This document shows, piece by piece, positions 6,926-62,363 of a stretch of 64,000 bases of DNA; the stretch's first letter is position 1, and each line of letters opens with the position of its first letter. Both the position numbers and the translations under genes were made by a program. The DNA comes from Polytrichum commune (Eukaryota; Streptophyta; Polytrichopsida; Polytrichales; Polytrichaceae). The notes under the pieces are model-generated. The model was not told the origin of the DNA. It worked only from the letters and a program-made list of their open reading frames with translations, and searched no databases. The DNA lies in NCBI GenBank assembly GCA_950295325.1, contig OX485808.1:376501-440500 (forward strand), read 5' to 3'.

Positions 6926-7249
6926 CTACACTACGAAGGATGTTTAGTGTTTGATACACTAAATACGAACGCATACACTAAATGTCAATAACCCTATGAA
7001 AGTAAGTAACATTAAATGTAAACTCAAACACTAAATATCAACTATGGTACTATGTGAAAGTTACGTGTATGAATTCAATGTTAGTAGGGATATGAAACAA
7101 AAAATAACAATGATAGGAGAAGAATTCCAACATCTCTTCTAGCATATCTTCTAACACTAATTGTCAAGGAATTGAAAACTAGTGTTGACCATGGTGTGTT
7201 GGTAACAACATTAAATATAATCAAGCACTAAATATCCTTTTTAGTGTAG
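6926..7249 (+). mobile_element. CTACACTA-terminal MITE, family 1, copy 1
   Basis: The left end reads CTACACTACGAAGGATGTTT. The right end read back is CTACACTAAAAAGGATATTT. The interior is packed with short direct and inverted copies of CACTAAAT/ATTTAGTG, typical of subterminal transposase-binding repeats. It aligns with 14581-14883 in the same orientation, and in reverse with the double copy at 59706-60276. No coding frame. No clean duplication of flanking bases is visible. Confidence 0.82.
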
Positions 7250-9985
7250 TGACGAAGCGGCCTTTTTTGTATTGAAGGAGACCAAATGTACATTTTGTCT
7301 ATACAATATTCATTTAACATTTTAACATAACGCCATAAATTGACCCCTTGCAAACTTCAAAGTCGAGTTGCCCAAGGTTAGAATAATGCATCTTTTTGTC
7401 TATTGTGTATCACCTTCAATATGATCATGTATTATTTTAGTATGTAACATGATTTATTTTCTTGATGATTACACTAAACAGTCCAATTAGTTTGGTCAAT
7501 TATTAATATGGAGGTAATTAGTGTGGGCCACACTTATTGACTAGTCATAATGCAAAGACACCCAAATCCTCCCCTAAGTTTTCCTAGAGGCGTTCGATAG
7601 ACATCTTGAGCAATAGTTTATGCACAAAATTAACATAGAACTAAACAATCACCCACATCAATTTCTTATACTTTTTATATTAATATGGACCACACTAATT
7701 TAAAACTAGAGTTTTAGTGTGGAATGAAAATAAACATGGCCCACACCGATTCTCTTTCCATGAAATAGTGTGGATTGTAGGGGAAATAATGTGGCCCACA
7801 CCAGTGGGGTTATTTAGTGTATTGGTTCCCAGTTTATGTTCAAATGATCATCATCAATTGCTCTACACAAGATTTAGCTCAATTTTTATTTTTATTTTAC
7901 CATCAAATTGCTATTGGCTTAGAATTGGCACGACCCAAGTCGTTGTTTTGAATGAAGTATCTATCCAATATTTTTTCTTCCAATTTTTTTGTAACATTAA
8001 TACATTTAGAAACATTCAATCTCAAGTTTATTTTTAGACTATATATATATATATAATACACTTTCTTTAGTTTCAAGTATTTATTTAGTATTAAGCTTAC
8101 TATCATATTACAATTGGCATGATTGTTGGATTGAGTAAATTATATCTCCAATAAAAAAACTCTATCTCTACAATATTTTCCCTTGGACTATTTCTTTATG
8201 ATTTTAATGTTTTACATTTAGTTGACATCAATGTCAAAAATGGGCATCCCATGATAATATACCAATTTTGAACGGAAATGTCATTTGCATTGTTATTTGA
8301 CCAATATCAGGGGGTGGGCAGTAATGGTACAATCTTCAAGAATAATATCACTAGTAACATGGTAGCAACGAGGTCTTGGTAATAAGGTAATGTAGAGTAG
8401 AAGGGGTAGCTAACATGGGTAGTAGAGGGAATTCCATTCCAGCTACCGAAAATTTTCAATTGTACTACTACATAAATGCAAATCATGAAAGTAAATGTGT
8501 CATGAAGAAGGAAGAAAACCAAGTCTTTGCAATTCTTTATAGAGGCGTTGACTAAATTAGGATCACCTAATGATGCTTATGCATCTACATGTGAATTCTT
8601 TTCGAAGGTAATTGTGGATTTCAAACATTGAATATACTCTCTATGTCTATGTGGATGGCACATGCATTTATTCGTACTTGTTGGTGTAGTAACGTTGCTT
8701 CATCGCATTTGAGAGAGACTCTATCATATTTGATGTTATCTTGGCACCATCGTACAATACTCTATCCTCACCTCATAGTGGTGGCGCAATGGAGAAGATG
8801 ATCACATTGTAGTAGGTCATTGGGTTATGAACCTTGCACCTTACCATTCCTAAATGTCGAGGTGAAAGAGTGTATTGAACATGTTAGTGACAAAGAGTAG
8901 GAGGGAATGGAAGGCGATAGGGGTAGTTACAAAGCTTCTATGCATGTGTTCCACAATGACTGCATTGATATGTGTGAGTAATTTCTTCTTGTACTTCTAT
9001 CTATGTCCAAGAACTTTAGATTCTAAAATCATGCAATGCCTCTAGTAGTTAATTTCTCAAACCTACATTGAATTCTAGTAATACAAGCTAGAGAGCATGC
9101 TCGATACTTGGAATGTGGTTGCACCTTTTTTTATATAAAGAAATTGAATGTTGAATCTAACGACAATGCTAAAAAGCATCTCCAAACTCTCGTGATCCCT
9201 GGGTTTACCATTATTCCGGGTTCCATTTGGAGTTGACACTTGTCTTTTGGCTCTTGCAGTTGTTGATTTTAAGAGTGAAGTGAGCCATTCACTAGGTTGA
9301 TTACACTTTGTATGAACTTCCCACTCATACTATTATAAGCAAAGATGGTATTCTTTATGCCTAAACCCACGGTTATAAGACACTAGTGGGTGTATCTACA
9401 AATATTATGCCAACCTCTCATTGGTCACAAATTACCACTCATATCTCACTGCTCTCCTATTAGCGCTCCTTGATGCTAGCCTAACTTCCAATCATGTGTA
9501 TTTAACCTACACAAATTCATGAAATGCTTTTGGTTCATTGGACTACGCAAGACTAGTCAGTACCTAGACCGGCCTATGATATCCCAAAGAAACAATGGAA
9601 CTAGTCCGAAACATGTACGCGACTCCTCTACACATATGTAAAGGTACAATCCAATGTCACACCTTAAGCCTATATCTAAGTGAGATGACGATAACCTTGG
9701 TTGGCGTGGATGAGAGACCTAGCCCTAAAGACACGCACTAGGTTTACATTCAAGTTCATATTAAAATAAATAAAAACAAGTCACAATGGATGAATTGGAT
9801 CGAAGTGATTTGATGTTAAACCGTCGAGAAATAACATGGGAATAAATTAGATCCTAAATGAAAGTGATGATGCCATGTATAGCATATGCCTTGCACATGA
9901 CCAAAATATAAGGATCCTATACATAGTTCAAAATCATTTACAAGAAAAATAACAAAAATAACAAAATAACAAAAAATAAGCATAG
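7250..9985. other. Intergenic, AT-rich; possible old MITE at about 7470-7821
   Basis: The only structure I note is at about 7470-7821. It is bounded by 'tacactaaac' and 'tatttagtgta' and holds four copies of a TGG(G/A/C)CCACAC motif at about 7523, 7685, 7736 and 7791. An (AT)n run lies at 8040-8055. The 106-codon frame at 7717-8037 (+) is AT-rich and matches nothing. The remainder is unremarkable. Confidence 0.45.
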
Positions 9986-10080: not shown

Positions 10081-12849
10081 ACTTGATTTAACTAGTTTAT
10101 ATAAGCCGTTTGAAAACTAAAACGATGTGCTTCATTATGAGTGAAGAAACTAACAACGCTTGCGCAAACCTCATTGGAGAGGTTTTAAATCAACATTTTT
10201 ACTCTAATGCGCAACAATACACAAAATTGCATAAGCAAACAACTAATGTGAGCACCAATTTATGGGTACCGTTTTTTTTTAAAATTACGCACCGAATTAT
10301 GCAATCTTCCCACAAGAGCCAAAAGACAAGTGGCAACTCCAAATGGAACCCGGAATAATGGTAAAGCCAAGGATCATAACCAAATAGGAATTCCACGACA
10401 AAATCAACGTCGCATTCAACATCGCCATCACAGTCGCACTACACCAAATACCATTTGTATTAACATATCATATGTTGTTGGCAAAACATACAACGTACAA
10501 TGCCACAATGGTCCCTATTATGTAGTTATTTATTATTATTTAAATTTTTTAAAACCACAACAACATTAGAAAAAACTTCTCATAACAAGGTCATTAGAAA
10601 TATACAAATGAGAAAGAAACATAAAAGGAAAAAAGAATAAACAGAAAGCTCTACAATTCCTCACTAAGCATTGACTCCAATTTATCAACTTTACCAACCT
10701 CACACTTAGATTCATATAATGCAAACTCATGAAAGGACGTTTCATCAAAGAAAAATGAAAAATGAAAAATGAAAAATTGTGTAGTATATGAACATGCAAT
10801 GTCCGTTCACCTACTTCTACATGTACCCACATGGGCATGGGGGGCATAAAATCTACAAGGCAAACCACTTAGCAAGATGCTCCGATACATGATCACATGG
10901 TCTCGAATACTACCACATTCACAAAGACTATACTATATTACATTGGCATGACATTGACCTTCAAAGGAATTCATTGACCCTTGAGAAGATGAGGACTTCC
11001 AAAGGGAACATATTTGAGATTATAATTTCCGTTTCACTAGCCCCTTGAATTCAATATGGACATATGTGTTTACACCAATGGATCCTTCCTCCCACCTTAT
11101 AAAGGGGAGAAACAAAAAAGAAAAAGAAAAAGAACAAATTCAACCTTCCATGCTTAGGAGAATACAACGATTATGTTAATCTAAGGGAAGCATAGAGACC
11201 TCCCAAGTTGCTAAAGATCCTTAGAGTTGAGCTTAAAGCATGTCTACACTCGTGACTTAGTGACCATAATAATTGCTTTCAAAATCTCTCATTGGTTGAG
11301 AAACGAGTGGCGGTCTCACATAGAAGCTCGTCAAAAAATAAAAGGGACCACGAGTGACGATGTCATAAAATGGATGGGAAAACGACATGGAATCCTACAT
11401 GTTAGGATTGAACAGTATTCGATGGTGTCTTGAATTTTATGGCAAGAGAATCTGATTAGGTCATGTCAGTGGAAAACAAGACGACCATGTTTAAAGAAAC
11501 AATCTATTGTTGGTGATTTTAGTTTTAAATATGTATCAGTTTAGAGGTATTTAATTTAAGAAAAATATGTCTATAAATAACCATATATATTGGTCTAAAT
11601 CAGACAAAACCAACATATCAAATGGATTGACCACCGCATAATATTCCAAATGTAACAACCCACAAATGCATAATTGACAACAAAATGGCCAACAAACTAT
11701 AGAACATTTAAAGAGTGAGGGAGAGAGACAACCACACCCACAATCACGTGACTCACACTAACCCATATTGATATGCAAATGCTCCCACACATAATGGATC
11801 CATCAATTTCATTTCATCCAAACCTTTATTTCCGGAAAACAAATGTGCACATGCACTCACACACGTGTAGGAAATATTTAGATCCAAGGGAAACCATGAA
11901 CACCATAAGACATGGACAAAAGGTTCCCAATAACCTTCAAATTTACGGACTCCTTTTGGATAGAGATATGGACGTCATAGTAGCGAGACCTAAGCCATAT
12001 AGATGTCCCAAAACATAGGTAACCTCCCCTCTCATTGTCAACAAATTTAACCCTCCAATTTAACAAGTCTACCTTTTGCCACAACACATTCATCAAAGGA
12101 GCCTTAGTAAAAAGACGCTTACAATATATGATTCAACATCTAAAGCTTGCAAAATAATGCCATTTGTAGTTATTACAACATGAGTAAGAGGAAGCATCCG
12201 CAATCACTCCATGGGAAACTTGGAAATTCTCAACATCCTCATGAAATTTTGTCAATAGAATCATGAAAATCATTACTTCACATCTCACCTAGATATTTAG
12301 GTTGTATCATTCGGAAATCCATGAATAGCATACTCTAGGTTGATAGCAAGTTGGGCAAAAGACAATTTAACATAGTTAAGCCTGCTTATTTCATAATTTA
12401 TTGGGTTAGATGGCCTAAATAAAACAAAAAGTAGTCATCAAAATGCCCAAAATATTAGGAAATTTGGTGCATTGGAATAACCTCTACCGAACATGAGCAC
12501 AAAATGACATAAAACATTGTTCACAACCCTAATTAACACACTAAGATAACTTAACCTAATTCCTCAAGGCTAACATTGTGTACTTAGCCGTGATAATTGA
12601 ATGATAATATAAGTTATAGTACGTGGGATTGTATGCATGATATGTTATGTGCCTAAATGAATAATTATAAGTATACATGTTTTTCTAAGTTTTCATAAAT
12701 GCTTTTACAGATTGCCTAAGCCATGTTTTTTTGAAAATGATTAATTACTAGACAACATTTGCCCAACTTGCTATCGACCTACGGTAATTCTCATGAGCTC
12801 ATAATCTTCACTTCATAACAACAATGTTACTATGTAAAGAAAACATGAC
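10081..12849. other. Intergenic, nothing recognised
   Basis: AT-rich sequence with scattered short frames of at most about 100 codons, which overlap on opposite strands. C exceeds G on the + strand again at about 11650-12560, more mildly than at 2.7-6.5 kb. I find no terminal repeats, RNA genes or conserved protein. Confidence 0.6.
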
Positions 12850-13130
12850 TTCAAGGTTGCCACCAACGTGAGCATTTTTTAGTTGTTTCTAGTCAACTCA
12901 AGATTATGATGTTGCTTCGTTTTTTTAGTTGGTCTAAGTCTATATGTGATCCCAAGACATGCATACCAAGAATTAGAATAGCCCTCAAAGGCAAAGTTCG
13001 TAAACGAGCGCAGACATGCCAGCCAACACCTATCTCCCCCAAGGCCAAGCATCTACGTTCCCACATGATTGGTTGAAAATACCCGGTTCACCCAAATACC
13101 CCCAATATGGTTGAATAACATGAAGGGGTG
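12850..13130 (+). repeat. 5S-associated dispersed repeat, body only (copy D)
   Basis: It shares with 17700-17965 an upstream block ('gttgccacc..gtga', then 'tatg.tgttgctt') and a downstream block ('gccaacacctatctccccc' … 'ggttgaaaatacccggttcaccc'). The downstream block also precedes the 5S-like domain at 56573-56665. Here the copy stops before any 5S-like part and runs into unrelated sequence. Confidence 0.65.
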
Positions 13131-14580: not shown

Positions 14581-14883
14581 CTACATATACACTAAATACA
14601 AACGTATGCACTAAATATCAATAACCCTATGAAAGTAAGTAACATTAAATGTAAACTCAAACATTAAATATCAACTATGGTAATATGTGGAAGTTACATG
14701 TTCGAATTTAGTGTTAGTAAGGATATGACCAAAAAAAACAACAATGGTAAAAGGAGGATTCTAGCGTATCTTCTAGCATATCTTCTAACACTCATTATCA
14801 AGGAATTGAAAATTAGTGTTGAGTAGGGTAGGGTGGTAACAACGTTAAACATAATCAAACACTACATATCCTATTTATTGTAG
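14581..14883 (+). mobile_element. CTACACTA-terminal MITE, family 1, copy 2 (left end eroded)
   Basis: Collinear with 6926-7249 over nearly its full length, including the 'aaccctatgaaagtaagtaa' block and the paired 'tcttctagcatatcttctaa'. About 23 bp of the left terminal repeat is missing, so the copy opens CTACATATACACTAAAT. The right end reads back as CTACAATAAATAGGATATGT. Confidence 0.8.
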
Positions 14884-15145
14884 TACAAAACATGGCTCTT
14901 ATGAACATGAAAGAGAAGTCATTTCAACACAAAAGGAGTCATTTGCACTCTTGTCTAAAACTTGGCCCATGATGTCCAAGCCTTGATGTCGAGGAAATTT
15001 GAGCTCAATCTCGTTAACATTTGTTTTCATTAACCACCTACATGCAAAAGTCAAATGTGTGATGAAGGCATGGGAAGAAAGCATATCGTCATTCCAACAA
15101 AGTTTGAGAAGAACCAATGGCCGTGAAAGTTATTAAGATGGGCAA

Positions 15146-15391
15146 CAACACTAAATATGATATTTAGTATCACTTACTATTTGGAGTTACACAATGATGT
15201 ATTTTTTTTATTGATGTAATGTCTTATCAAGTAAAGTTGTTGTCGTTCTATAACGTCCAAACAAGTAATTTGACATTTGTTGGCAAGATATGAGATATAC
15301 GGTAAAAAATAATTAAAATAATAAAAATAATAAAGTATAGCATTGCGTAATTCCAAATAGTAAGTGACACTAGACATCATATTTAGTGTAG
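15146..15391 (+). mobile_element. CTACACTA-terminal MITE, family 3, copy 1
   Basis: Inverted arms of about 50 bp. The left arm runs through 'tatttagtatcacttacta' and 'tttggagttacacaatg'. The right arm runs back through 'cattgcgtaattccaaat' and 'agtaagtgacactag'. The partner copy is 35761-35971, with the same arms and an unrelated or deleted AT-rich centre. No coding capacity. Confidence 0.82.
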
Positions 15392-15998
15392 TTGCATATA
15401 TTTTTTACAATTTTGAATGATGGGATGGACATAGACCCTCAATTGAAATATACACACATGTACAAAATCGGGAAACATACATGCGAGAGTTTGGAAATTC
15501 AAATTGAAGTTCACATGCCTCTTCTAGAGACAGTCAAAGTTCATTGACTAGATGATGGATGTCTCTCGTATTGAACTTGAATGCTATCTTTGAAGCATGT
15601 TTTCTTTGAGTTGTTGGCCACACTGCTAAAGATAGCTTATTATTTCAATGGGAAATGCCCACGGGCAAGAGAACTTGCCTCCTTGCTCGGGTCTTAGTGG
15701 CCTTCTAAGAGAATCAAATTCACCTCGAAGCATTGTTCTCCTTTATATCAAATTGAAAGTTAACGGGACTTGCGCCTATCTCTTCTTGAAATGCATAAGA
15801 ATCAATATGCCAAGTTAGAGACCATATGACGATGTGAGGTGACGATTCAGAACACTCTCCCAACATATATCACCCCTCGGGTCACTGGGGGCAACAAAGG
15901 GTTAATCCTAGATGGATGCATGGATGTCATACTCCTCTATATCATATCAAGCCCTAAAGGTATGTCAGCCAAGTTATGTGACATATCACTCTTCTTAA

Positions 15999-17300: not shown

Positions 17301-17699
17301 GTACAAATTGCATGTAGGGGTACTTGATTGAAAAAATTGGAAGAAGCAAAAGATTAGAACTAACAATTTTGGGCTTGAAAGTACAAACAATAATAAGTCC
17401 ACCACGGGATTTTATTATTGTTGTGAAGTGTAATAAAAGAAAACATGCTATGAAAATATAGATTTATGCATCAATTTTGGACATAACAAAATTGTATATG
17501 TATGGGATATTTATGCGCATTTCTATTGGTGGAGTGTATGACAGAAATGACATACATACTGGTTTTTAATGTGAATTACATCAATTGTGCCATGTGTTAG
17601 TTGCATGCACATTTTGTTGTTTGTGGGGAATACACAATTAGAATAATCATTAGCAATATTTTGCAATTGCATTGGACCTTCTCAAAGAGGGAAATACGA

Positions 17700-17965
17700 C
17701 GACGGTGTTGCCACCGGTGTGAATTATGGTGTTGTTTCATTCCGAGCTAGTACAAATGCACACATAATTTTGAATAAGGCATTGCAAGAACTAGCGGCGC
17801 CCCGACAACTATTGTTTTTTTTTTAAGGTGAACACCTTGAACATGCATAGACAAGCCAACTGACACCTATCTTCCCCCGGGGGCATGCCCTTGGGTTTGC
17901 ACATGGTTGGTTGAAAACATCCATCTCACCTGGATACCCTCACTATGATTTAGGTGGATCACAGT
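17700..17965 (+). repeat. 5S-associated dispersed repeat, body only (copy C)
   Basis: It aligns with 12850-13130 through 'ttgccacc.gtgtgaattatg' and again through 'gacaagccaactgacacct'. It then shares 'ggttggttgaaaacatcca' … 'gattta.gtggatcaca' with the region preceding the 5S-like domain at 56573. At the point where the 5S-like part should begin the sequence changes to a different repeat (17975 onward), so the copy is truncated or interrupted. Confidence 0.65.
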
Positions 17966-17974
17966 TGGTAGACT

Positions 17975-18270
17975 ACACCCACTGTAATTTTGACACACCA
18001 CAATAATTTTGGTGAATGTAGTTAGTCTCGACACAACCATGTTTTGTGACCACAATCTCCATGTTCAAATCTAAGAACATGGAATCAAAGTTCTATTTTC
18101 ATTACATTAATTATTAAAGGTTGGAACTATAGTATAAATATAATAACGTTTCAATTATTTTTGAATTTCATCACTTTATATTCTACATATTAAGAATTAT
18201 TACCTTATATGCCGTCCAAACTTTCAACACCTACTTAGAATATTGCGGGTCATGGTATTTCCCACTATGT
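17975..18270 (+). repeat. SINE-like dispersed repeat, copy 1 (partner 39077-39345)
   Basis: The two loci align loosely over about 280 bp. They start at 'cactg.aat.ttgacatacca', pass through a GTTCAAATC-type box at 18062-18070 (39153-39161 in the partner) and 'agaacatggaatcaaag', and end near 'atggtattt'. The GTTCAAATC string resembles a pol III B box, which suggests a tRNA-derived SINE. I cannot identify a convincing A box. Confidence 0.5.
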
Positions 18271-30200: not shown

Positions 30201-32390
30201 AATCAATGTGCATAAGTGGTGGGACCCATATTAAGTATATGCCTTGGGATTGTGGAGTTGTTCCAAGGACAAAATGAATCGGAAGGAGAACATGAATCAC
30301 GATCATCGGTGGGTTAGCTTAACTTAACTTAATTCGAGGAGTTTTTTTTAAAACCTTGGTACCAAAACATATGTTGCACTTTTGAATCTTTGGATTGAGT
30401 GGAGGTTAAGAAACGATTGAAAGAAAATAAAATATTCATGTAAACTTAACGAGTTGTTCCAAAATCCTTCTTGACTATTGATTGAAGTTTGGGTGGAGGT
30501 GGCTTACTTAGACTAATTCGTAGGAGAGTCAACGAAGGCGATTGAAGGGTTGAGGTTTGTTAATTAAAATGCCTAATGTTAAGGCTAGGAAAATTCATTC
30601 ACGTATATTGAAAGAATCCAATAGTAGGCTCTAGAATCTTGGTAGCATCATTGGTGGGGACAATTTCATGTTAGAGTTTTGGTGGCCATGTGATGTTTGG
30701 TATTTGAAAAAAATGAAGTAGGGTTAAAGGTTTTAGGTATAACGACTCCTCTCCTCTCCCCTCCTCTCTATGTTAGAATTAGATTTGGAAGTGGGTTAAG
30801 GGAGTGATAATTGCTAATAATCTAGATGATTGGGTAAATCATTTCTTGATTTTTGCGATTGATGGATGGATTGCAGTTGCAAAGATCGATCTCACAACCT
30901 AGGGTCAAATATTGAATGATGTGATAGGAGGGATGTGTTAAAGGCATGGTTGAGTTGGTAGATTTGGCATGGGGTAGAGAAGTTCATTTGAGTTTAGATT
31001 TGAATGAAGAGCCAATGAAGGAGAATGACGTGGATGACTAGCTAACACCAATAGTCAAGCTTCTTGAAGCTTGTGAGCATGCCCGACTACTATCAAATCT
31101 TGTAGTGGAGCACTATTCAAAGTTTTTAATTACAAATGTGATGCAACCTTTTATGAATAGGTTGAACAAGATGTCAATTTACAATATCAACAAACATATC
31201 ATAAGACAATAGAATTTTTTCTACTTTCGTAGTGTGTGATATGATGAAGACATCTTCATAAGACTTATTAATCTTCATATTGTGTGATATTGAGAGCATA
31301 TTTTTTCAATATAAAATGTTCTTTCCTACCTACATATATTCATTACATATACAAAATGATATTTTACATCAAACTAGCCCATTATCTTGAAAAAAACTTG
31401 ATAATACAACATTGGAGGCCAAAGTGTCATGTCATCGAGAATAAAACATTAAGATAATTTGACATTTTTATAGCATTATTCAGTCGTTTGGTTGTGTTTT
31501 GTTCTATATTTAGCATTTGACATGGACCTCCACTGTCTTACCTACATGGGAAGAAACTTAGAAAACAAAAAGATATTGATGCTAATACAAATAAGGAATG
31601 GTGTTGGGATGAATAGTAAGAGTATTGTGAATAGAGTTAGTATTTTCAATAATAATGTTGCTATGAATAGTATTTTCAATGAACAATACCGGGACAAACA
31701 ATGATTATTGTGAATAATGCCAAGAGTTCAAGAGTGAGTTTTCATGCAGGCCGCTCGTCCACCATATTCTAGTGTGAATAAACACAAACCCACCCAAATG
31801 TAGAAAGGATCTAGTGGGGTACGGTTTGTATGTGCCAACAAGCTAATCCTGTCTTCTCAAATCCAAGTGTCATTTACTAACCTCCTCCTCCCGGTTACAA
31901 AAGATGGAGTTCTAGACCAACATTGATTCTCTTGAGTCTTCAACCGGTCTTAATCCTTCAGTGATTGGGACTTCTAGGTAAAGATTCTTTAGTGGGCGCA
32001 TGGGAATTTAGCGGCATGTGTCCCATGGCCCTTGTGAGCCCAAAATGGTGCCCACATGTGGTGATTAACTCTTCGAAACCAATTTTAGTTTGACTTTGAG
32101 GTGTTATGATTATTCACAAAACATAAAAAGAGTGAAGTGTGGTGTGGATTTAAGTTTAGGCATTAGAATGTGTTGTGTGGTTATTTCAAGGTTTGATTTC
32201 AATAAGAGAATGCCTTGATTATGTGAGTAAGGGGTAAGGTGAGGCAAGGTGAGCTCCGCGGGTTAAATGCCCACTTTTGGATCCACCTTGTTAGTTTAGG
32301 AAGGAGGAAGCTTGGTGGATGGGGATTAGTCCCTATTTTGGAGGAGAAGGTTAAAGGATTGTGATTGGAGGTGCTAATCCTCTCACCCTA
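30201..32390. other. Intergenic, nothing recognised
   Basis: G and T are favoured on the + strand at about 30300-31100. No gene, RNA or element with ends is seen. The 70-codon frame at 31492-31704 has no support. Confidence 0.55.
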
Positions 32391-32625
32391 TCCTCACCTC
32401 TCTCTCCCTCTCTCCCTCTTTGCTACTTAAGGTGTTTTTTCTCTCATTTACCTCTCTCTCTATCAAGTGCTCTCATGAGAGCGAGCTCTTAAGAGCTTGA
32501 GCCACGTGTGTGGGTTTATTAGTTTTAGTAAAGTGAAGGAGTTAAGCTCTCTCTCTTGTCCTCTCAAGGAGGTGAGCTCTTAGAGCTTGGAACCATGGGT
32601 GTAGATTAGTTAAGGTTGTTAGTTA
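32391..32625 (+). repeat. CT-rich leader-like tract and an 85-90 bp tandem duplication
   Basis: A pyrimidine-rich run (32391-32470, repeated 'ctctccctct') is followed by two diverged copies of a block. Each copy contains 'gagctctta.gagcttg' and 'gtgtgg/gtag.tta' (about 32465-32525 and 32555-32620). CT-rich runs like this are common in plant 5' leaders. A transcript starting here and reading into the minisatellite is possible but not shown by the sequence. Confidence 0.45.
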
Positions 32626-32792
32626 ATTATTTAGTTTATTAGTCAAAGACTAAAAGAGTTAGCCATTGTCCGATTAAGCATCTTGAGAGGATAACATTTA
32701 GTGTGTAGTTGAAAGGCTCGCATGTGGGCTTTTAACTAATTAGGTGATTAGGTGGATTGTGGTAAATTTTAGTTCGGCTTGATTAAGCTTAT

Positions 32793-33505
32793 GGAGAGCC
32801 GAGGTGGCTAAGCCCTGGAAGCACTGAAGTATGGCTTAAGGCCCTGGAGAGCCGAAGGTGGGTTAAGCCTGGAAGCTCTGAAGTCCGGCTTAAGCCCTGG
32901 AGAGCCGAGGTGGCTAAGCCCTAGAAGCTCTGAAGTTTGGCTTAAGGCCCTGGAGAGCCGAAGGAGGGCTAAGCCCTGGAAGCTCTGAAGTCTGGCTTAA
33001 GGCCCTGGAGAGCCGAAGGTGGACTAAGCCGGAAGCTCTGAAGTCTGGCTTAAGCTTATGGAGAGCCGAGGTGGCTAAGCCCTGGAAGCACTGAAGTATG
33101 GCTTAAGGCCCTGGAGAGCCGAAGGTGGGCTAAGCCTGGAAGCTCTGAAGTATGGCTTAAGCCCTGGAGAGCCGAGGTGGCTAAGCCCTGGAAGCTCTGA
33201 AGTCTGGCTTAAGGCCCTGGAGAGCCGAAGGAGGGCTAAGCCCGGAAGCTCTGAAGTCTGGCTTAAGGCCCTGGAGAGCCGAAGGTGGGCTAAGCCCGGA
33301 AGCACTGAAGTCTGGCTTAAGGCCCTGGAGAGCCGAAGGTGGGCTAAGCCCTAGAAGCTCTGAAGTCTGGCTTAAGCCCTGGAGAGCCGAGGTGGGCTAA
33401 GCCTGGAAGCACTGAAGTATGGCTTAAGGCCCTAGAGAGCCGAGGTGGGCTAAGCCCGGAAGCACTGAAGTATGGCTTAAGGCCCTGGAAAGCCGAGGTG
33501 GCTAA
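32793..33505 (+). repeat. 53-55 bp minisatellite, 13 full units plus a partial, with higher-order repeat
   Basis: Units begin GGAGAGCCGA and end GGCTTAAGGCCCT. They start at 32793, 32846, 32899, 32952, 33007, 33060, 33113, 33166, 33219, 33273, 33327, 33381 and 33434, with a partial at 33487. Units 6-10 repeat units 1-5 almost exactly, so a five-unit block of 267 bp was duplicated. Unit 1 equals unit 6, including the preceding 'aagcttat'. Each unit carries an internal inverted pair (ctaagcc … ggcttaag) able to form a small hairpin. A 76-codon minus-strand frame within it is only the repeat read through. Confidence 0.98.
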
Positions 33506-35610
33506 TTAAATTAAAAGGGTACCTGTTTGGTTAGCCCATTTATATTTGATTAAGCTAAGAGGCTACTCAGAGTTGGAACTAATCAATAAAGCACGAGCAT
33601 ATTCTAGCATCTATCACATTAGATTCCCTGAGACCTTAATTAGCCATGGGAAAGTAGTTAGTACTTTTAGTATAGTTAGAATTAAGGGTGGCCGCAAGGC
33701 AATTGTGTGGGAGCGTGTTTAACCATTAAGGGAGTGTTTTTCAACACTTACATCCTTTTTGGTAGAAAATCGATCACTTATAAAAAAAATGGAGAAAGCG
33801 GAGGACATCCACATTGGCGAAACAAAGGAGGTTAGGCCGATGGAGAAAGCGGAAGACTCTAGCAATGGTCAAGTAACGAAGAGAATAATCAAAGGCCAAA
33901 GGGGAATATCCTTGAGAGCTTGTGTTGCCAAGGCCGCCGGTTGGACCCTTGAGAAGGCCAACGCGTCCCAAAGCCAAGAGGCTACCACTAATAAACAAAG
34001 TGATTCAAAATGATAGGAACGCCTTTGGGTGCAAGGAGATCATTCTTCCGATACAAACAATACATGTGATTCTCAACACCATCACCCGGACTAGGACGCT
34101 TAAGGGTGGTGGGTTTGGCCTCACAACCCTCCACATTCTAGTGGACTGCCATAATGTGGTTGGATGGCGGCTTGTGCTTAACTACATGCAAACACCTCCA
34201 ACCCACTACTGTCTATAATCTAGCAGGCGAGTGGCCTACATGGGATCTCATGGCCCGATCACAACAAACCTTATGTCCAGTTCCAACTATGAAATTGTTG
34301 GGGATTACGTTTAAAATTAGATGGTGGCCCACCACCTTTCACCACTATTACAGGCGGAGATGTTGACATACAATGCCAGAAGTGGTTGGTGTGATCAACC
34401 CCTCACCCTAACTCCCACCCAAATTTCCAAGTATCATCTTGAATATATGAATAGTAAACAAACATTCCCACTTCGTTCAGGGGACCACAAAATAGAATTA
34501 ACATATTCCAAGGTCACGGAACCGGCCCACGTGGCTCTCAACAAGCTTGTGATCTCGCGCGACCAAACGTGTCACATGAAAGAGGGGAGCAAAGTGTCCA
34601 TATTATGCACCGAGAGTCAACATCCGAAATCGGTGCTAATGAAATGAATATTTTTTTTAGGGTTGGGACGGGCGGGGGCCATAATTTGGACGTGAATCGT
34701 TATTCCATCCCTAATAATGATTCAATCCTAGCCTCACAGGGTGTAACTTAAATATCAATTGTTGCTAAGATATGGATGACCATGATATCTATCCGAACTT
34801 TAGACTATTCACCGTTTTGGCACCTTCCTCGGTCAACTCACCCCGCGTTTGACCGCAACTTAAGTGAAGGTGGTGAATAGGAGCGCAAGTTCTATCTCCA
34901 AATGAATAATGTTATATATTCATTGCACGTAAGCCGGAGCCCCATGCTAGTATAGTAGACGGACGGATGGATGGATAATTGGATGATAAATCCCACCCAA
35001 TTTCATTCATTCAAGGCTCGATGTCCGAGGCTCGGGAGTGTACTATACATGAACATGGAGGAACCGACCGTTAATTACCGTGATGAACCGGTTGAAGTTC
35101 GGGACTTCGAAGGGAACTTACCCGGCATTTTAATGGAATTCCACGTCGAAACAATAAAGAGGAAAGACCGAAAGATCGCAACATGTCACAAGTTGGACTT
35201 GGAATGAATTTTAGGATCTTCACTTATTAATGCTCAAATTCTTCATACCTCTATTTCACCCGACATAAAATATCTTGATCCTTAAATGCTTGGGCAATCA
35301 CAAAGTGGTCGGCTTAGGGTCAAAGTGTCGGATCAACAATTTCCTCGCCTATGTTGAAGTTATTATTTTGACGAGATGTTTAAGTTACGTTACAATGCAT
35401 CATTTTAACTGTGGGGATTGAGCATAGGACCTACTTTGTAGATTCAACACTACTGAGCAAAATTGAAATTTGGTTGTCCAAAACGCAAACTGAATTCCAG
35501 GGATATTTCAATCATGTGCTTCTTGTAGCATTATTATTATTATTATTATCATCATCATCATTCTTATGTATGTGGATTCTCTTGCTATGAAATCCGGGTC
35601 ATCACCAAAC
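33506..35610. other. Intergenic; CpG-containing, several unexplained short frames
   Basis: From 33750 to 35210 the sequence is richer in CpG than average. It holds frames at 33759-34013, 33922-34218, 34321-34647 and 34971-35207 (+), of 60-108 codons. None matches a family I recognise. They lie in different frames without splice signals I can defend, so I call no gene. An (ATT)n/(ATC)n microsatellite lies at 35529-35562. Confidence 0.45.
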
Positions 35611-35611
35611 A

Positions 35612-35760
35612 TTATGCATATATGAACATGTAAGATTCCATGTCACTTTCTCAAGTGTTTTCTTACACACTTACCCTTAGGTGACCTTATGTAGAACGAG
35701 GTGGGTCTATCACTCATTTCTCAACCAATGTAAAATTTTAGAAAGTGGTGGTCATGGTTA
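35612..35760 (+). repeat. Dispersed repeat R2, copy 3, interrupted by a MITE
   Basis: Aligns with 19425-19610 ('catgtaagattccatgtca', 'taggtgacc', 'tcactcatttctcaaccaat', 'gtggtcatggt'). The family-3 MITE at 35761-35971 sits at its right end. The sequence resumes with 'gtgtaaagcaaccct', comparable with 'catgtaaactagccct' at 18655. Confidence 0.6.
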
Positions 35761-35971
35761 CTGCACTAAATAGTGTATCTAGTGTCACTTACTATTTGGA
35801 ATTACACAATGCTATAACTATAACATGTGTATCTCATTGCTAGCCAACCAAGGTGAAATTGGTTGTTTGGGCATCATAAAAAAAGCCATCAAACTCTTTT
35901 AAAATAGAAAATAGAAAAAGCATTGTGTAACTCCAAATAGTAAGTGACACTACATACAATGTCTAGTGTAG
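35761..35971 (+). mobile_element. CTACACTA-terminal MITE, family 3, copy 2, nested in R2
   Basis: The inverted arms match 15146-15391: left CTGCACTAAATAGTGTATCT then 'agtgtcacttactatttgg'; the right arm reads back as CTACACTAGACATTGTATGT then the same block. Left flank TTA, right flank TCA. A 3-bp duplication with one substitution would fit, but one case cannot prove it. Confidence 0.82.
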
Positions 35972-37814
35972 TCACGAGTGTAAAGCAACCCTAACTTGGT
36001 CAAAATGGTGACTTCCATTAAATTGGATCTACTCCCAACACCAAACAATTGTGGAAAACTTTGCCACCCAATGGGACGGGGTTGTACGTCTCTTTGACAC
36101 CTTCAACTTGAAGATGTGCATTCGTGGGAAGAGCGACATAGAGTGTATGTTCCTTAAGCTTAAGCCTTAAGATTTGAGAGGTCTATGAAGAGTTTGAATA
36201 AAAAAGTGACAAAATGTTAGGTAAAGGTGTATAAACTTACATTTCGAGACATTCAATAGAAGATGCTAAGAAATGAACCTGCTCATTGGTTGGTGGAAAG
36301 GTGAGAGGCTTGTGGCGAACACTATTTTACTAAAGAGGTTACCCATGTATGAATGTCCTAGATTTTCATTTGTATTTGAACATGTGTGTTGTATATTACA
36401 TGATACCACTAGCATCATATGAGTCCTAGACAATTGCCCTCCATTGGCGGAAGGAATGAAATGAAGTGAATTCAAAATAATTTTAGAGTTCACGAAGTCA
36501 AAAGGCTAGTATACAAATTTGCAGATTTTCTAATGACATGGGACAATTTATCAGCGATGCAGGACAATTGTCCTTGACTCGTATGCTTGTAGTGTATTGA
36601 CCACTCTAGCAAAGGTGTTTATGATATGGGCTTCTACATCTTACATAAAGAGTTTGCTCAAAATATCGTAGCTCTCTAGTAGCTTGGGCACCTTTCTGCA
36701 TAATAATAAATTGAAGTGCAAAAGTAAGTTAGGCAGCCCAAAACAATATATTTTGAAATTGGGTAAACTATAATAATAATTTAAAATACGTTAGACATTC
36801 ATCCAAGTCATTTCCATAATTCATGGATGGTTTTCCTAATTTCATCTTTGGCGGCTATGATTAACCTAAAAACTTTCCTTACCCTAAAGTTTGAGTGAGA
36901 TTGATGGCGGGTGAAGATGATGTTGAAGTTATTTGATGCTACTTTGTTGGATTCCAATGAATGTCACTTGCATTGTTGTGATTCTAGACACTCTTTGAAC
37001 GTGTTTTTTTATATATATATTTGAACACTCAATGATTTTATTTTATTTTATTTTATTTTATTGTTGGTCCATGCTGCTAGAGAGCTACGGGACCTATTTT
37101 GAGTTCACAGTTGGGTTGGACTCACCGTAAAGGGCTATCTATTTTGACAATACATAATTATATCCTCCTCATATTATGCCATGTGTCAATCCTACATTAG
37201 ATGAGACCTCTTGTGTCCCAAGTGGAAACTGCATTCTAGACACTAGTAAAGATGAAATTAAGCAGCCTCTATAGTCACTATATTCGTTAATCTGAGACTT
37301 TCTCTTGTCTCAAATTAATATATGGACCACAACAACATGGTCTAATGTTTGGGTCGTCCTACCTAAACCATCTTGATATGAGTTCTTAATTGGGTTCTTG
37401 ATATGAACACCTGCTTCAAAGTATTTGCATCTTACAACCTTCTCCAATATATGTGTGATTTTATCCATGTTCTTATATTTGTAACCGTCTCAAAATGCCG
37501 AAAAAATCCCAACTTAACGAATATAGTGACAGTGTATAAGACCATTGGAAACATGATCCCTAACTATTGAACTTATTCATTAATCAACCCTAAATCACGT
37601 CTCTTCGAGTCGGACGGATAAATACACAAAAACGCAAATTGACCTATATCCTCTGATAAGTTAAACAAATGACCTCCACATGGACCAATTATGAACGATT
37701 GTCTATGGAAATCAACTAACTTTCCTTCTTATGCCTTTAAGTGTACAAAGTGTTGCATAAGTTCTAAGACCAAGGGCATGACACCTTGCATAGAAGAAGA
37801 AGGAACATATAACC
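35972..37814. other. Intergenic, nothing recognised
   Basis: AT-rich. Contains a (TTTTA)n microsatellite at 37034-37062 and a short (AT)n at about 37010-37020. No gene, RNA or element ends supported. Confidence 0.55.
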
Positions 37815-38344
37815 TCAATGTTGCCACTAATGTAAGTTATGGTGTTGCTTCATCTTCAAGTGGGTCTTAAACTTTTGATGTGATCCCGAAATTACAATCA
37901 TTCAAGGAACCTTAAAGAATGATGTTTCGTTTCAAAGGTGCTAGAATAGCTTCAGCATGCACAACAAGACAACGGAGACAACGAGTTATCATATATGAGA
38001 GCACCTCTCCTTCATCCAAGATAAAAGCCATGAAACAACATGCAAACACCAAGGTTACTTTCATAAAGGTTATATGACACCAGAATTAGCTTTAAAACTC
38101 CCAGATTAATCTACTCAACATAATTTAAGATGAATTGGCAACAAACCTACATGGGGATCAAGTTTTAATGTTGGATGGATGAGAGCTATTCTCACATACA
38201 ATATAACTCCCTCTCTCCCAACACAACTCACACTCGTATCACTAAAGGCACAACTCCAAGTTTCCGATACGGTCGATTGAAGTAGTTTAAAGGTGCATTT
38301 TGTTTACCCAAATACCCTATGATTGGGTGAACCAAATTTGCGGC
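37815..38344 (+). repeat. 5S-associated dispersed repeat, body of copy B, with internal extra sequence
   Basis: It starts like copies C and D ('gttgccactaatgtaagtta', then 'tggtgttgcttcatc'), continues through 'catgcacaacaagacaacg', and after extra sequence reaches 'acccaaataccctatgattg'. It then enters the 5S-like domain at 38345. The extra 300-odd bases between blocks suggest an insertion in this copy. Confidence 0.5.
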
Positions 38345-38425
38345 GAGGTCAACATCATAGAACTACTCTCACCTTAAGACAACTTGATCTCGAAGTTCAC
38401 ATGGAATTTGTGTGAAGGCCTTGGA
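38345..38425 (-). repeat. 5S rRNA-like domain within a dispersed repeat (copy B)
   Basis: Read against the reverse complement of plant 5S rRNA, the block matches at 'gaggtcaacatcatag.act', 'actctcacc', 'ctcgaagttc' and 'atgg.at'. It is diverged. It shares the derived tail 'aaggcc(t)ttgg' with 56573-56665, so both come from the same modified source and not independently from 5S genes. Not a functional 5S gene. Confidence 0.68.
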
Positions 38426-55294: not shown

Positions 55295-56439
55295 TTCTTT
55301 GAGTTTTCAAAAGTTCAATGCACCCCCCCCCTCTTATTTTGGTTGGCTTCCCACTTGTGTACCTACAATGAAAGTTGCGGCGGACGGTTAGCAACAACGT
55401 TGATTCATTCATAATTCTCAAACATATCCAATTGCAAAGGACAAGCCACAATGGACGGCAACAATGGACAAGATATTCTCCGTAGGATTCCGGGTGGGAT
55501 GTATATTATAGTGTCTAGTATGCGGGGCCTTGCACAACTACCGATCTCAACACCTTTTTCATGACTAGGGATTGCCCGCTTGCATATAAATTTTAGGAAT
55601 CAAAATACCCAGTTAGCATCAAGTTGTTCCCATGGCCAACGGTTTCCAAAAGAAAGCCATCCAGAAGTAGAAAAAAAGGAAGAAGGAGGGAACTGAACAC
55701 CTGGTGTTCTCACCGACGTGAATATGAGCTCGTTAACCCCATCATGCTCGAGAGCCCCCTTGGTACGTGCTAGGGCGTAGTGCCTACCATTCGGTAGCTG
55801 GGTACTAGAAAGCCATCAATAGGTGTGGCCTTCAAAAGTTTTATTTTCAATAGACATGATTGTACCCTCTCGACCCTTTAGATACTTGCTTGGGATATTG
55901 AACGAAGGCACTTGTGTGTATGGTCTATACACCTACATGATTCCTATGAGTTCTCACTAGGCCTTAAAACAATTATATATATATATAGGTCTGAAAAAAT
56001 ATTTAGTGCATCATCTTATGTCAAAATATCTCAAGCATTAGAAGAAAATACAATCACATGTGACCAATCTCAACATAAATACCCTTTAGAAAAAATGTGT
56101 TTTCATCCAAGGACATCCAAGTCATGTAAATTGATTCAAATCCTTGATTGCATCAGAGTATTCAAATGATTTCAAAAGTGCACTTGATAAATGAATTCAT
56201 TTTTGAGTAGTGTTAGTTTGATATGATCAAATTAAATTGAATGTATGTAGCTTAGAACCCATGTTTTGTGCAAGCCCACTTATAGTAGGACATCAAACAT
56301 ACAATCAATACAAGATGATTATTAGCAAATTCAAATTGTAGCCTTAGCCCATTTTATTCGCAAAGTTTTGTAACACATATGATTGACTCACTCACTTTGA
56401 TGTTGAAGTTTTCTTCTCTTTTCTTCTTGAATTATCAAT
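55295..56439. other. Intergenic; holds copy 2 of the short dispersed repeat at 55711-55800
   Basis: A poly-C run lies at 55322-55332. At 55711-55800 the sequence around GTGAATATGAGCTCGTTA is shared with 9991-10080. On the minus strand a 'ggtgttcagttcc' string just beyond the shared block resembles a pol III B box, which would fit a tRNA-derived SINE. No gene seen. Confidence 0.5.
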
Positions 56440-56572
56440 ACCTTGAACGGGTGTGAACAAGCCGATTGGCACCTACCTACCCCAAGGGCAAGGCCCTAGG
56501 TTGGTTTGAAATATCCAGTTCACCCAGATTACCCCACTGTGATTGGGTGGATCATAGGGAAAATGACTGGAA
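56440..56572 (+). repeat. 5S-associated dispersed repeat, body of copy A
   Basis: Starts 'ccttgaacgg', continues 'aacaagccgattggcaccta' … 'tccagttcacccagattacc' … 'gtgattgggtggatca', matching copies C (17851) and D (13018), and leads directly into the 5S-like domain. Confidence 0.7.
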
Positions 56573-56665
56573 ATTAATCGCTAGGAAGGTCACCCATCCA
56601 CGTACTATTCCAGCCTTAAGCGGCTTAACCTTGGAGTTCCCATGGAATCTGGATTAAGGCCTTTG
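56573..56665 (-). repeat. 5S rRNA-like domain within a dispersed repeat (copy A, best preserved)
   Basis: On the minus strand this reads like a near full-length, diverged 5S rRNA. The + strand shows the complement of the 5S 3' half ('ggtcacccatcc', 'gtacta', 'gcc'), then 'aagcggcttaacc', 'ggagttc' and 'atggaatc'. It shares a modified end ('aaggcctttgg') with 38345-38425 and is embedded in a repeat family, so it is an element-borne 5S sequence. Cassandra TRIMs of vascular plants, which carry 5S in their LTRs, and 5S-derived SINE3 elements are the two known precedents. Too diverged to be a working 5S gene. Confidence 0.82.
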
Positions 56666-57945
56666 GTTTAAGTGACAATTTTGCATGAAAGCATTTTGAA
56701 TTCCAGGGTTAGGCAAAAATGTAATGAAGCTTTGGACAACCACTTGGATTATTCAAGAGTCATGATGAATGGGATGGACGCATCGCAAATGTTTTGGGAG
56801 AGTCATTATTTTGGGTACTTTTGTGTGTCTCTCTCTATCTCTCTATCTCTCTCTCTCTCACACACAATATCAAAATAAACAAATAAACAAATAGTTTTTA
56901 GAAAATTCTTTTAATACCGGTGCATGTTTATTTCAAAGTATTATGTAATATCATTTCCAACAAAAGAGAGAATAGAATTGAAGGTTTATCAATGAGTATC
57001 ATGAGATCTTACCCGGAAAATCGAATGTGTAAATGGAGGTCAAGCAAAGAGGACGAAGGGTGTTTGTAGGGGGACCATGGGGAGGTTCGTTTTTGGGGCA
57101 ATTTTTGATCCCACTCTTTTTAATGACAAATGAAAATTGTACATGAACATATTAGCAAATTCAAATAAGAAACATTCAACCACAAGGGTTGAGGTTGTTG
57201 AGTCTAGAGTCAATATGCATGAGCTAATGTTTTTCCAAATGCTTGAAGAGGGATTGAACTCATAGATAAGCTATAATAGTTTTCTCTAAATATCTACATT
57301 AATGACTTTGGACATGCGCCGCATGTAGACAACACTAATTCCGCCCCCTATACCCGCCTCTCATTATGGTACCCTTATTAAGCATGATGCCGACCTTTGC
57401 TAATTACTTGGTTTAGGGTCGGTATTTAAAAAGTTGAGTGCCAAGGAAGGGCTCATAATGGGCAATGGGCATGTCAAGGCTCCATAGAGAGTGAGTAACA
57501 AGTAACAAAGGTAAGGACTTCCAAAAGCCATGGGTCCATGTAGCTAGTATAAAAGTCGTGGGCCCTTTAGAGCAAATGAAGGTGCATGACACACCAATTT
57601 ATGGGGTTTTGTACAATGGACGGACATAAGAAGGCTATAAGAGACCAACTATGGGGTAGAATGGGATGGAAAAGGCTAGAAAGTGATGGAATAATAATTT
57701 AAAACACTTGCTTTGCAACTACCCATTGGCCTAGTCAAACACCCTTTATATGACGGCATTTGAAACCTAGTAGATGTTGTGAAAAAAACTTCCTACTATA
57801 TTCATGTTGTGGTGTGTGTGTATATATCTATGGCATCTTGTTTCCATTTGCTAAGTTTTCTTTGCCCTCACTTATACAGTTATGATACTCTATATAGGTT
57901 AAACTTGCCAAAGATTTGGTTAAAGCACCCTCTACCTTATATGTT
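56666..57945. other. Intergenic, nothing recognised
   Basis: (CT)n/(CA)n microsatellite at about 56830-56866. No gene or element boundaries supported. Confidence 0.55.
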
Positions 57946-59705: not shown

Positions 59706-60276
59706 CTACACAAAATATGAAATTTAGTGTTTGATTAGATTTAGTGTTTTACCACCCTACTCTGCTCAACACTAATTTTCAATTCTTTGATAATTAGTGT
59801 TAGACATAAATGCGCCGCCGCCGCCTTCCTTGTTGCCACCTCTTTCCTACTAAACACTAAATTTGTGTATGTAACTTTCACATATTACCATAGATGATAT
59901 TTAGTGTTTGAGTCTACATTTAATGTTACTTACTTTCATAGGGTTAGTGATATTTAGTGTAGTGTTCGTATTTAGTGTATCTAACACTACATATCATATT
60001 TAGTGTAGTTTTCAGTTCCTTGACAATTAGTGTTAGACATAAATGTGATGCTACCTCCCTACTGTCACCTCCTTTCCTAACACTATATATATATATCATC
60101 TTTTTTCCATATCCTTACTAACATTAAATTCAAACATGTAACTTCCATATATTATCATAGTTGATATTTAGTGTTTGAGTTTACATTTAATGTTACTTAC
60201 TTTCATAGGGTTATTGACATTTAGTGTATGCGTTTGTATTTAGTGTATCAAACACTAAATATCCTTTTTAGTGTAG
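59706..60276 (-). mobile_element. CTACACTA-terminal MITE, family 1, head-to-tail double copy
   Basis: Two family-1 bodies in the same (reverse) orientation, 59706-60008 and about 60009-60276, share a single internal terminus ending 'tttagtgtag' at 60008. Both contain 'tactttcatagggttagtga'-type blocks, 'tttacatttaatgttactta' and 'acaattagtgttagacataa'. The outer ends read CTACACAAAATATGAAATTT and, read back, CTACACTAAAAAGGATATTT. A (GCC)n run lies in the first copy at 59813-59823. Confidence 0.82.
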
Positions 60277-62363
60277 TGGATGGAAGAACATGTGTCTAGT
60301 TTATCTTTTGTTACCTTCTTTCCAATTGAACTTACATGATATGAAGTGCACAATCACAAATACTAAGGTGAAAGGAAGGGATTAAGACCATGGACTGCTA
60401 ATGTGAAATGTGGTATGACCTATTGGCTTACACGGTGGACATGTAATATTGGTGACTGGAGTTGAGGTAAAAAGACTAATGTTTGACAAATCAATTATAA
60501 TAAGAATCAACTAAGGAGACGGAAAGCCTTGCAAGGGTGATTAACTGCATTTTCAAGTTACACTTAAAAGGTTAATCGGCACAAGACCAATGACCACACC
60601 AAAGTGCCCTTGGCTTTGGTACATTAACAACAAAAATTTTTGGGATACTTCATGCAAGATTATTGACGATGGTTGTGCCTTCACTTGCACACCGCACAAG
60701 GTCCAAGTAAAATGAACTCATTGCAAGACTATGGCATGGTTAAATAGTGTGAGATTGAAAGTTTGCCACAAACGCATGTACTATTATCGAGAGACTCTAA
60801 ACCCTTATTCATGAATAATTGTGTGGATTATTAGTCTGCATCCTCAATAACCTAACATGAACCTACGTCTTGTCCTGGTCAAACTTATTTGAGACACCTA
60901 GATAATACGCAAATCACCCTTTTAAATCTTCCACGAGCGTTCCTTTATTTTTCATTTTTTATAAACTAAATCTATTCAAACAATATTGTATTTGGTGCGT
61001 TGGAAACCTCATGATCTTACAGAGCACACAACTTGACCATTCCAACAATACAATCCACACTCAACACCCATTATGTTGGTTTTACGTTATTTAACTTGGT
61101 CCACACACCTTACATGTTGTTATCACCGGTCAACATTAGGTGCAATACTATATAGACGCATATGTCAATCTATCACTAGACATGGCTAGGAATGCATTTT
61201 GCCATCACGAATTCATACATTTGGAAGGTGAAAACCCAACATACTCTCTACGATCCAAAAATGGTCACCAAAAACAAGTTGAATGTGAAAGTGATACCGG
61301 AAACCCCAAAGTAATTTAGCGGAGCCTAGTTGAAATGAACCGCCCCCCTACTTCTCATGGATCGATGATCGATGGATGCGTTTACACAGACGCCCACTAA
61401 CCGCAAGCCCACCATCTACATTCTCCGTTTCATAATGCACCAGGGGTGTACATTCTCTGTTTTGTTATGTACCAGTGGTGTACATTCTCCTGTAGTTTGT
61501 GGCCCCGGTCCTCTTTAATTGCATCAAATCAAGTGCTCACTCTGTCGAGTTTTTTTGTCACATTGATTGCACCAAATTGATTGCACCGAATTCGATAGCT
61601 TAAGGACTTTCATCATCATCAACAACAACAACAACAATAACCGATCAAGTTGACATTCTTCCCATGGTGGTCAATGAAAGGGATCGGTTTCTTCTTGTGT
61701 GGAGTAGTTGGGAAAACGCAACTTAAACGGTCCATTTTGAGATTGCAAATCTAGATCGGTGTATGAATGAATTCCCTTCTCCCGACTCGTCAAAGGTTGT
61801 GGCGTGTTTGTTCTTATCCAACGCACGGACATAGCTCAAGGAGGCTCGGGTTTCCATAGTGTCTATATATGTGAACTCATTCATTGCGGATGAAGTGGCT
61901 CTAAGGTAGAGGATGCTAAAACCGTTGCGTGGAACATATATAATATGATTAAGTTTACAAGGATGTGATTCTAGCAATCGAAAAGGGACTCCAACGCACC
62001 AAAATATTACTTATATCGACTCTGCATGCAAATATTAAAAGGGTTGGAAATTTAGTTGGTGGATGATTCAAAGTCAATATGGGAGTCTGATGTGTAGGGT
62101 GGGTGGACATCCTCGTAACCAATATGTACTTTATTGTGCAAGGTTTGAAGGTGTTGGTGTTGGGTGGGGTGTTCGTTTTAGCATCATCGACCTTGAGTGA
62201 ATACATGTCCGCTATAGGTTTAGGGTCAATTCATTTTGGTTGGGTCCCACTAGACTAATCTCTGGGGTGTTTAAAAACATATCCGGTGTCAAATAAGCTA
62301 AAACGCATATTAGAATATGTCACTACGATTTCCCCTTCCCAATGGGTGAGTTTACTTAGACAC
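60277..62363. other. Intergenic, nothing recognised
   Basis: (ATC)n/(AAC)n microsatellite at about 61610-61639. A local direct duplication 'tgtacattctc' occurs at 61446 and 61481. No gene, RNA or complete element supported. Confidence 0.5.

Follow-up and report, generated by a model that had tools for sequence, protein, structure and literature searches.

Retroposons with a 5S rRNA-derived 5′ part have been described in animals. In the animal SINE3 elements, like zebrafish SINE3, AmnSINE1, Ped-1 and the lepidopteran HaSE3, a 5S head with an internal RNA polymerase III (Pol III) promoter forms the 5′ end and is followed by an unrelated body and a LINE-related 3′ end (PMC3747384, PMC10886601). 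A moth SINE is also treated in connection with 5S rRNA (PMC3272025). The table rows consulted in PMC3747384 give 5S SINEs for vertebrates only; for Chlamydomonas they name a SINE that ends in (CTTT)n and has a RandI tail. Outside of animals, 5S-related SINEs are reported from the fungus Aspergillus fumigatus (PMC5063351). According to PMC10886601, SINE3 elements were born several times.

In plants, the Cassandra TRIM is a retroelement with a 5S-derived promoter, which is located inside of paired LTRs. Cassandra has been recorded in monocots, dicots and ferns (PMC10853983), and no TRIM was detected in Physcomitrella according to PMC4717578. For its origin, a capture near 5S rDNA arrays was proposed, and promoter gain is cited there for SINEs of animals (PMC10853983); it was also speculated that Cassandra stems from a SINE3 inserted into an LTR (PMC10886601). 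The green lineage further contains SINEX-2_CR of Chlamydomonas, a SINE that ends in (CTTT)n and shares its RandI-2 tail with a LINE partner (PMC3747384).

The locus described here lies in a stretch of 64,000 nucleotides of the moss Polytrichum commune (contig OX485808.1, positions 376,501 to 440,500), referred to as the window. Its focal repeat is very probably a decayed copy of a SINE which carries a copy of the 5S rRNA gene as its 5′ end and was spread by retroposition. It is the 3′-truncated, minus-strand copy (about 56678-56437) of a dispersed element of 402 nt. In architecture this element resembles the animal SINE3 elements, with the 5S head at the 5′ end and an unrelated body behind it; the comparison concerns the arrangement of these parts. 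It differs from them in that it occurs in a land plant, has a head similar to the 5S gene of its own host and ends in a (CTTT)n tail. The fungal elements share with it the occurrence outside of animals, and SINEX-2_CR shares the tail and probably the presence of a LINE partner; both are compared by their descriptions. The following features were identified in the window:

56561-56679, minus strand: 5S rRNA-derived head of the focal SINE copy, with SINE position 1 at about 56678 (cmscan with RF00001 and alignment to the family consensus)
56588-56599, minus strand: core of the 5S box C, GGATGGGTGACC, intact in the focal copy (read from the sequence and alignments, with box C limits that we assumed)
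56437-56560, minus strand: SINE body of the focal copy, positions about 119-257 (blastn with the consensus)
17684-17979, minus strand: second copy, SINE positions 111-405, body and 3′ end without head (blastn, 74.1% identity over 297, E 5e-53)
12836-13113, minus strand: third copy, SINE positions 138-366 and 367-401, without head (blastn, 75.8% identity, E 7.5e-42)
37794-38424, minus strand: fourth copy, SINE positions 14-92, 129-165 and 258-407, with a partial 5S head (blastn)

The preliminary description had placed a nearly complete 5S-like block on the minus strand of the focal repeat and called for its scoring with the Rfam 5S covariance model. Within the segment 56300-56800, cmscan detected this block at 56561-56679 (minus strand), where it covers the entire model RF00001 (positions 1-120) with 24.9 bits and an E-value of 0.0065, below the gathering score of 38. 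At the Rfam gathering thresholds no RNA family was found in the whole 64-kb window, and the focal copy is therefore regarded as a decayed relative of 5S rRNA and not as a gene. ARAGORN found no tRNA in the window. Alignment with the family consensus covers SINE positions 7-257 at 56672-56437 with 80.9% identity (blastn), and positions 258-402 and the tail are missing. Compared with the extent given before (56440-56665), the repeat is a little wider, at about 56437-56678.

The body sequence had also been reported from three further places in the window, and all three were recovered with the consensus (second to fourth copy above). All four copies are located on the minus strand. When the focal region itself was compared with the window by blastn, its body was matched at 17815-17964 and at 13027-13113, and its head at 38346-38422. 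The last piece of the third copy (12836-12871) is weak if taken singly (E 0.073). The three pieces of the fourth copy are colinear (E 5e-07, 0.004 and 4.7e-16), with about 360 nt between the last two pieces compared to 92 nt in an intact element. The top window match of the 402-nt consensus reached 206 bits, whereas 50 shuffled versions gave at most 29.7 bits and the reversed version 22.6 bits, so that the presence of the repeat in the window is not a matter of chance.

Several other repeats were observed in the window. A tandem array (GGAGAGCCGAGGTGGGCTAAGCCC...) that repeats about every 53 bp is located at 32778-33496; the surrounding interval 32001-36000 has 44% G+C, compared to 35-41% further along on either side. 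Terminal inverted repeats (arms of 74 and 65 nt, ends CACTAAATA...) delimit two related elements at 15135-15402 and 35757-35975, which are perhaps MITE-type DNA transposons. Another dispersed repeat occurs at 6926-7250, 14587-14884 and 59749-60277 in both orientations, with its copies 84-93% alike.

The genome has a size of 407.8 Mb and consists of 64 contigs. Seven of these are large (42-78 Mb each) and together make up 406.1 Mb; such a size and number of chromosomes would suit a polytrichaceous moss. Among the best 40 of 1182 rough candidates scored, 39 loci besides the focal one match the focal sequence, with 73-82% identity. Alignment of 12 fetched loci revealed a common start, GGGTGG..., and a sequence which runs past the block first described, with only the focal copy stopping early. 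The complete element has a length of about 402 nt plus tail. Searched against the genome, as had been suggested for the body, the 402-nt consensus revealed a dispersed family: the best 40 of 2705 rough candidates are distributed over all seven large contigs and show 86-90% identity, with the element starting at consensus position 1-3 in 39 and ending at position 399-402 in 38 of them. Co-occurrence of head and body elsewhere in the genome was confirmed as well. All 40 of these loci carry both parts, in a set which the search had practically restricted to full-length copies. With only the 3′ end as query, at least 40 loci were matched, and 20 of those absent from the full-consensus set were fetched. 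At least a part of the 5S head is present in 18 of these 20, with 16 extending back to position 14 or closer to the start and two lacking a head. If the four copies in the window and a single one in 32.7 kb of loci fetched for a different purpose are extrapolated, the copy number would be in the region of twenty thousand, an estimate with a wide margin of error.

The family starts with the first nucleotide of 5S rRNA, and the complete 5S-like head is located at the very 5′ end. For comparison, 47 of 15430 rough candidates for host 5S genes were scored, at least 29 of which exceed the 5S cut-off, 12 of them with 98-110 bits. The consensus head aligns over its full length with one host 5S gene (L013), with 90 of 119 positions identical. 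Within the limits which we assumed for the promoter boxes, 6/6 positions of the intermediate element, 16/18 of box C and 11/15 of box A agree, compared to 35/49 for positions 1-49 and 13/22 for positions 98-119. The intermediate element and box C are therefore the best kept parts of the internal promoter, and box A is no better preserved than the remaining head. The consensus thus retains the sequence of a putative internal Pol III promoter. Head and body are conserved to a similar degree among the 40 copies. When single copies were compared with the Rfam 5S model, only 1 of 20 full-length copies reached an E-value of 0.1, which indicates that little of the 5S secondary structure is preserved. 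Downstream of the head, the consensus contains a TTTT run at position 172, and 31 of the 40 copies have at least four consecutive T between positions 121 and 390, five in a row being found in only 4 of 40. A strict Pol III terminator at such runs would shorten the transcript, which counts against the Pol III model.

The genome contains many dispersed 5S genes and pseudogenes. Two 5S genes are located at L018 (1501-1619 and 2700-2818), 1.08 kb apart in opposite orientation and inside of long inverted arms. L017 and L082 share flanking sequence with L018, which suggests a dispersed 5S-bearing segment. In the alignment to L013, the host 5S reads GGGCCGGAATAGTACTGGGATGGGTGACC. Flowering plants have GGGCGAGAGTAGTACTAGGATGGGTGACC at this position.

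Behind the head, the element consists of an unrelated body of about 280 nt, a 3′ end capable of forming a hairpin and the (CTTT)n tail; a 3′ SINE tail, for which the preliminary description had advised to look, is hence present. Target-site duplications (TSDs) were scored in 40 copies as the best ungapped match between the 20 bases before the element and 50 bases at its end, and the expectation was derived from 60 re-pairings of the flanks. A score of at least 7 was found in 24 copies (2.5 expected) and of at least 9 in 11 copies (0.15 expected), the remaining 16 copies scoring below 7. In 13 of the 16 copies with a score of at least 8, the duplication lies within 2 nt of the first base of the element. 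The TSDs of these 16 clearest copies are variable in length (8-17 nt); examples are found at L056, L028, L040 and L046. The focal copy scores 4, which means that no TSD was found, as expected for a copy that has lost its 3′ end. Composition, boundaries, duplications and dispersal of the family can be read directly from the aligned copies. Fixed ends, TSDs, the CTTT tail and one copy per locus correspond to the anatomy of a SINE and not to that of an LTR or a pseudogene. As judged from sequence, the 5S head at the extreme 5′ end, the TSDs of variable length and the simple-repeat 3′ tail support the assignment of the element to the SINE3 class of 5S-derived SINEs.

For identification of a possible LINE partner, the best 150 of 2620 rough candidates for reverse transcriptase and the best 150 of 402 for endonuclease were scored, and 16 places downstream of such matches were sampled for LINE 3′ ends. 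One group, named LINE B, combines an Exo_endo_phos_2 endonuclease with RVT_1 and RNase H and ends about 6.06 kb past the endonuclease match. In one of its first three ends (L113), a weak match to the SINE end is located exactly at the LINE terminus (E 0.057). For the three single sequences, 12, 62 and 128 of 500 mononucleotide shuffles scored as well against the SINE end, so that the match was not convincing at this level. From 17 more places fetched, 13 contained the LINE end, and a consensus was built from 16 ends; some of these are near-identical copies and the 16 ends are thus not 16 independent lines. The consensus 3′ end reads ATTCACGCCGGT...GGGCGTT, followed by a TTTTC tail. The 12-mer ATTCACGCCGGT and the subsequent AA.AT.CGG are common to LINE B and the SINE end, with the 12-mer at a similar distance from the tail in both. 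The last approximately 45 nt of the SINE reach a local score of 13 against the LINE B consensus, over a match of only 24 columns, and 12 of 20,000 shuffles were as good. This score was not reached in 731 other windows of a single LINE, where the maximum was 11, nor in 61 other SINE windows, where it was 7. A hairpin is possible at the shared point in both ends, with unexceptional stability (z -1.8 and -1.2). Both ends are followed by pyrimidine repeats, CTTTT in LINE B and CTTT in the SINE. From these sequence similarities, LINE B is likely the partner of the SINE, an assignment which depends on a short match.

This shortness gives room for the alternative that the 5S-derived SINE was moved by other machinery, such as a poly(A) L1 or an unseen LINE, and that the LINE B block at its 3′ end arose by chance or convergence. 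L1-type LINEs with poly(A) are present in the genome. Two more LINE-like groups are present as well (L105-L110, L116 and L117), whose 3′ ends were reached only tentatively and gave no convincing match to the SINE. However, three L1 3′ ends score only 5-7 against the SINE end, in contrast to 13 for the LINE B consensus, and the (CTTT)n tail resembles the CTTTT of LINE B and not poly(A). The poly(A) L1 elements L097-L100 were therefore rejected as partner by 3′ sequence. In addition, SINE and LINE B both leave TSDs of about 10-16 nt. We consider a different machinery unlikely, though clearly more probable than the other alternatives discussed below.

At least 40 loci match the LINE B tail, 20 of which were fetched. 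The match to LINE sequence extends over more than 200 nt in 11 and over 62-171 nt in nine. These nine have no common sequence upstream of the last approximately 120 nt, and no tRNA was found by ARAGORN in the eight that were scanned. TSD-like repeats (score 10-16) occur in 8 of the 9, compared to none of 72 mispaired flanks reaching a score of 10. Since they combine such repeats with the lack of a shared upstream sequence, they were read as 5′-truncated LINE copies and not as another SINE family. The repeats further indicate that LINE B integrates by target-primed reverse transcription with strong 5′ truncation. The polyprotein of one LINE (L111, C1:44787300-44791200) shows a weak PCIF1_WW match at residues 779-867 (E 7.9e-07). 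It is located between reverse transcriptase and RNase H, and its 29.3 bits are just below the curated cut-off of 31.1.

With LINE B as the likely partner, a mobilization in three steps can be proposed. With TFIIIA as its guide on the internal 5S promoter, Pol III would transcribe the SINE from its first base. The EN-RT-RNaseH reverse transcriptase of the LINE, whose own RNA would carry a similar 3′ sequence before its CTTTT tail, may then take the SINE RNA by its 3′ end. Copying of this RNA into a nicked target by target-primed reverse transcription would leave the observed duplications. LINE copies are up to 99.2% identical to each other (L102 and L111), whereas SINE copies are at best about 90% identical to their consensus among the best 40 of 2705. 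The copies are thus old and the family is probably no longer moving, so that the SINE looks like an older passenger of the LINE.

A 5S block joined to a non-5S body in a short dispersed plant repeat looks at first sight like the LTR of a Cassandra-type TRIM, present as solo LTR with the 5S promoter inside, and Cassandra is widespread in plants (PMC10853983). Both Cassandra and SINE3 had been named as precedents, together with a search for LTRs and 5-bp target duplications. Neither LTRs nor 5-bp duplications were found, and there was no internal domain that could hold a primer-binding site and a polypurine tract. In all 12 loci of about 3.2 kb there is no second copy of the focal sequence; in one further locus (L075, one of the 20 3′-end loci) the first piece is followed by a second one that is 5′-truncated. 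The 5S part is located at the very 5′ end and not internally, the element ends are GGGTGG... and (CTTT)n instead of TG..CA, and the duplications measure 8-17 nt in the 16 clearest copies instead of 5. Cassandra or a solo LTR was therefore rejected on structure and has next to no probability left, while the SINE3 precedent holds with its 5′ head, variable TSDs and tail.

The repeat could also consist of 5S pseudogenes which were duplicated together with flanking DNA, segmentally or in tandem, without any retroposon. This genome indeed has many dispersed 5S genes and pseudogenes, along with duplicated 5S-bearing segments. The explanation is contradicted by the TSD statistics, since it accounts neither for the sharp and uniform element ends nor for the direct duplication of unrelated flanks at scattered places, and we regard it as highly improbable.

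P5SM is a 5S mimic which regulates the splicing of TFIIIA. A derivation of the head from P5SM in TFIIIA pre-mRNA instead of a 5S gene was set aside on box C and is almost certainly wrong, because the P5SM-like copies in this genome, which include one dispersed fragment of about 212 bp (L093), lack box C (GGGAGGGTAGCAACC), whereas the SINE keeps it and starts at the first 5S base. Paired 5S-like blocks, 184 bp apart, were observed in three related loci and are presumably tandem P5SM copies:

C2:59433393-59434288: pair of 5S-like blocks (L079)
C7:14287827-14288725: pair of 5S-like blocks (L080)
C4:54347459-54348181: pair of 5S-like blocks (L092)

At L079 the blocks are followed by an open stretch that encodes C2H2 zinc fingers (PF00096). 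Among natural proteins in the PDB, TFIIIA (1tf6) matches this stretch best, with a designed protein ranking first. Elsewhere in the genome, fourteen light-harvesting protein matches with equal top score are located within about 94 kb in both orientations (C5:1751760-1846160). The top single-stretch structural matches of an LHCB protein of this genome are chains of 8htu and 7xqp, structures of the moss Physcomitrium patens, with 460.8 and 458.9 bits compared to 437.9 for the next one. A 9vfj entry ranks higher with 512.4 bits, but none of its stretches passes the cut-off singly.

The family described here is apparently new. Its kind, the 5S-derived SINE, is known, and it occurs in a kingdom for which our literature search found no such element. 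This search covered the listed titles and beginnings of abstracts of freely available papers, and a status as first in plants is therefore a lead and not a proof. We see the arguments as evenly balanced for the wider reading that the element represents the first land-plant lineage of 5S SINEs, that it arose separately from those of animals and fungi by combining a plant 5S gene with the tail of an EN-RT-RNaseH LINE, and that plants thereby had the SINE3-type element proposed as source of the Cassandra 5S promoter. Such a SINE in a plant is the intermediate which was postulated for the birth of Cassandra, and it makes the route of a SINE3 into an LTR testable. The moss element would add one more to the separate births of 5S SINEs. 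Together with LINE B it makes a probable SINE-LINE pair of a bryophyte, in which the tails consist of pyrimidines and not of poly(A).
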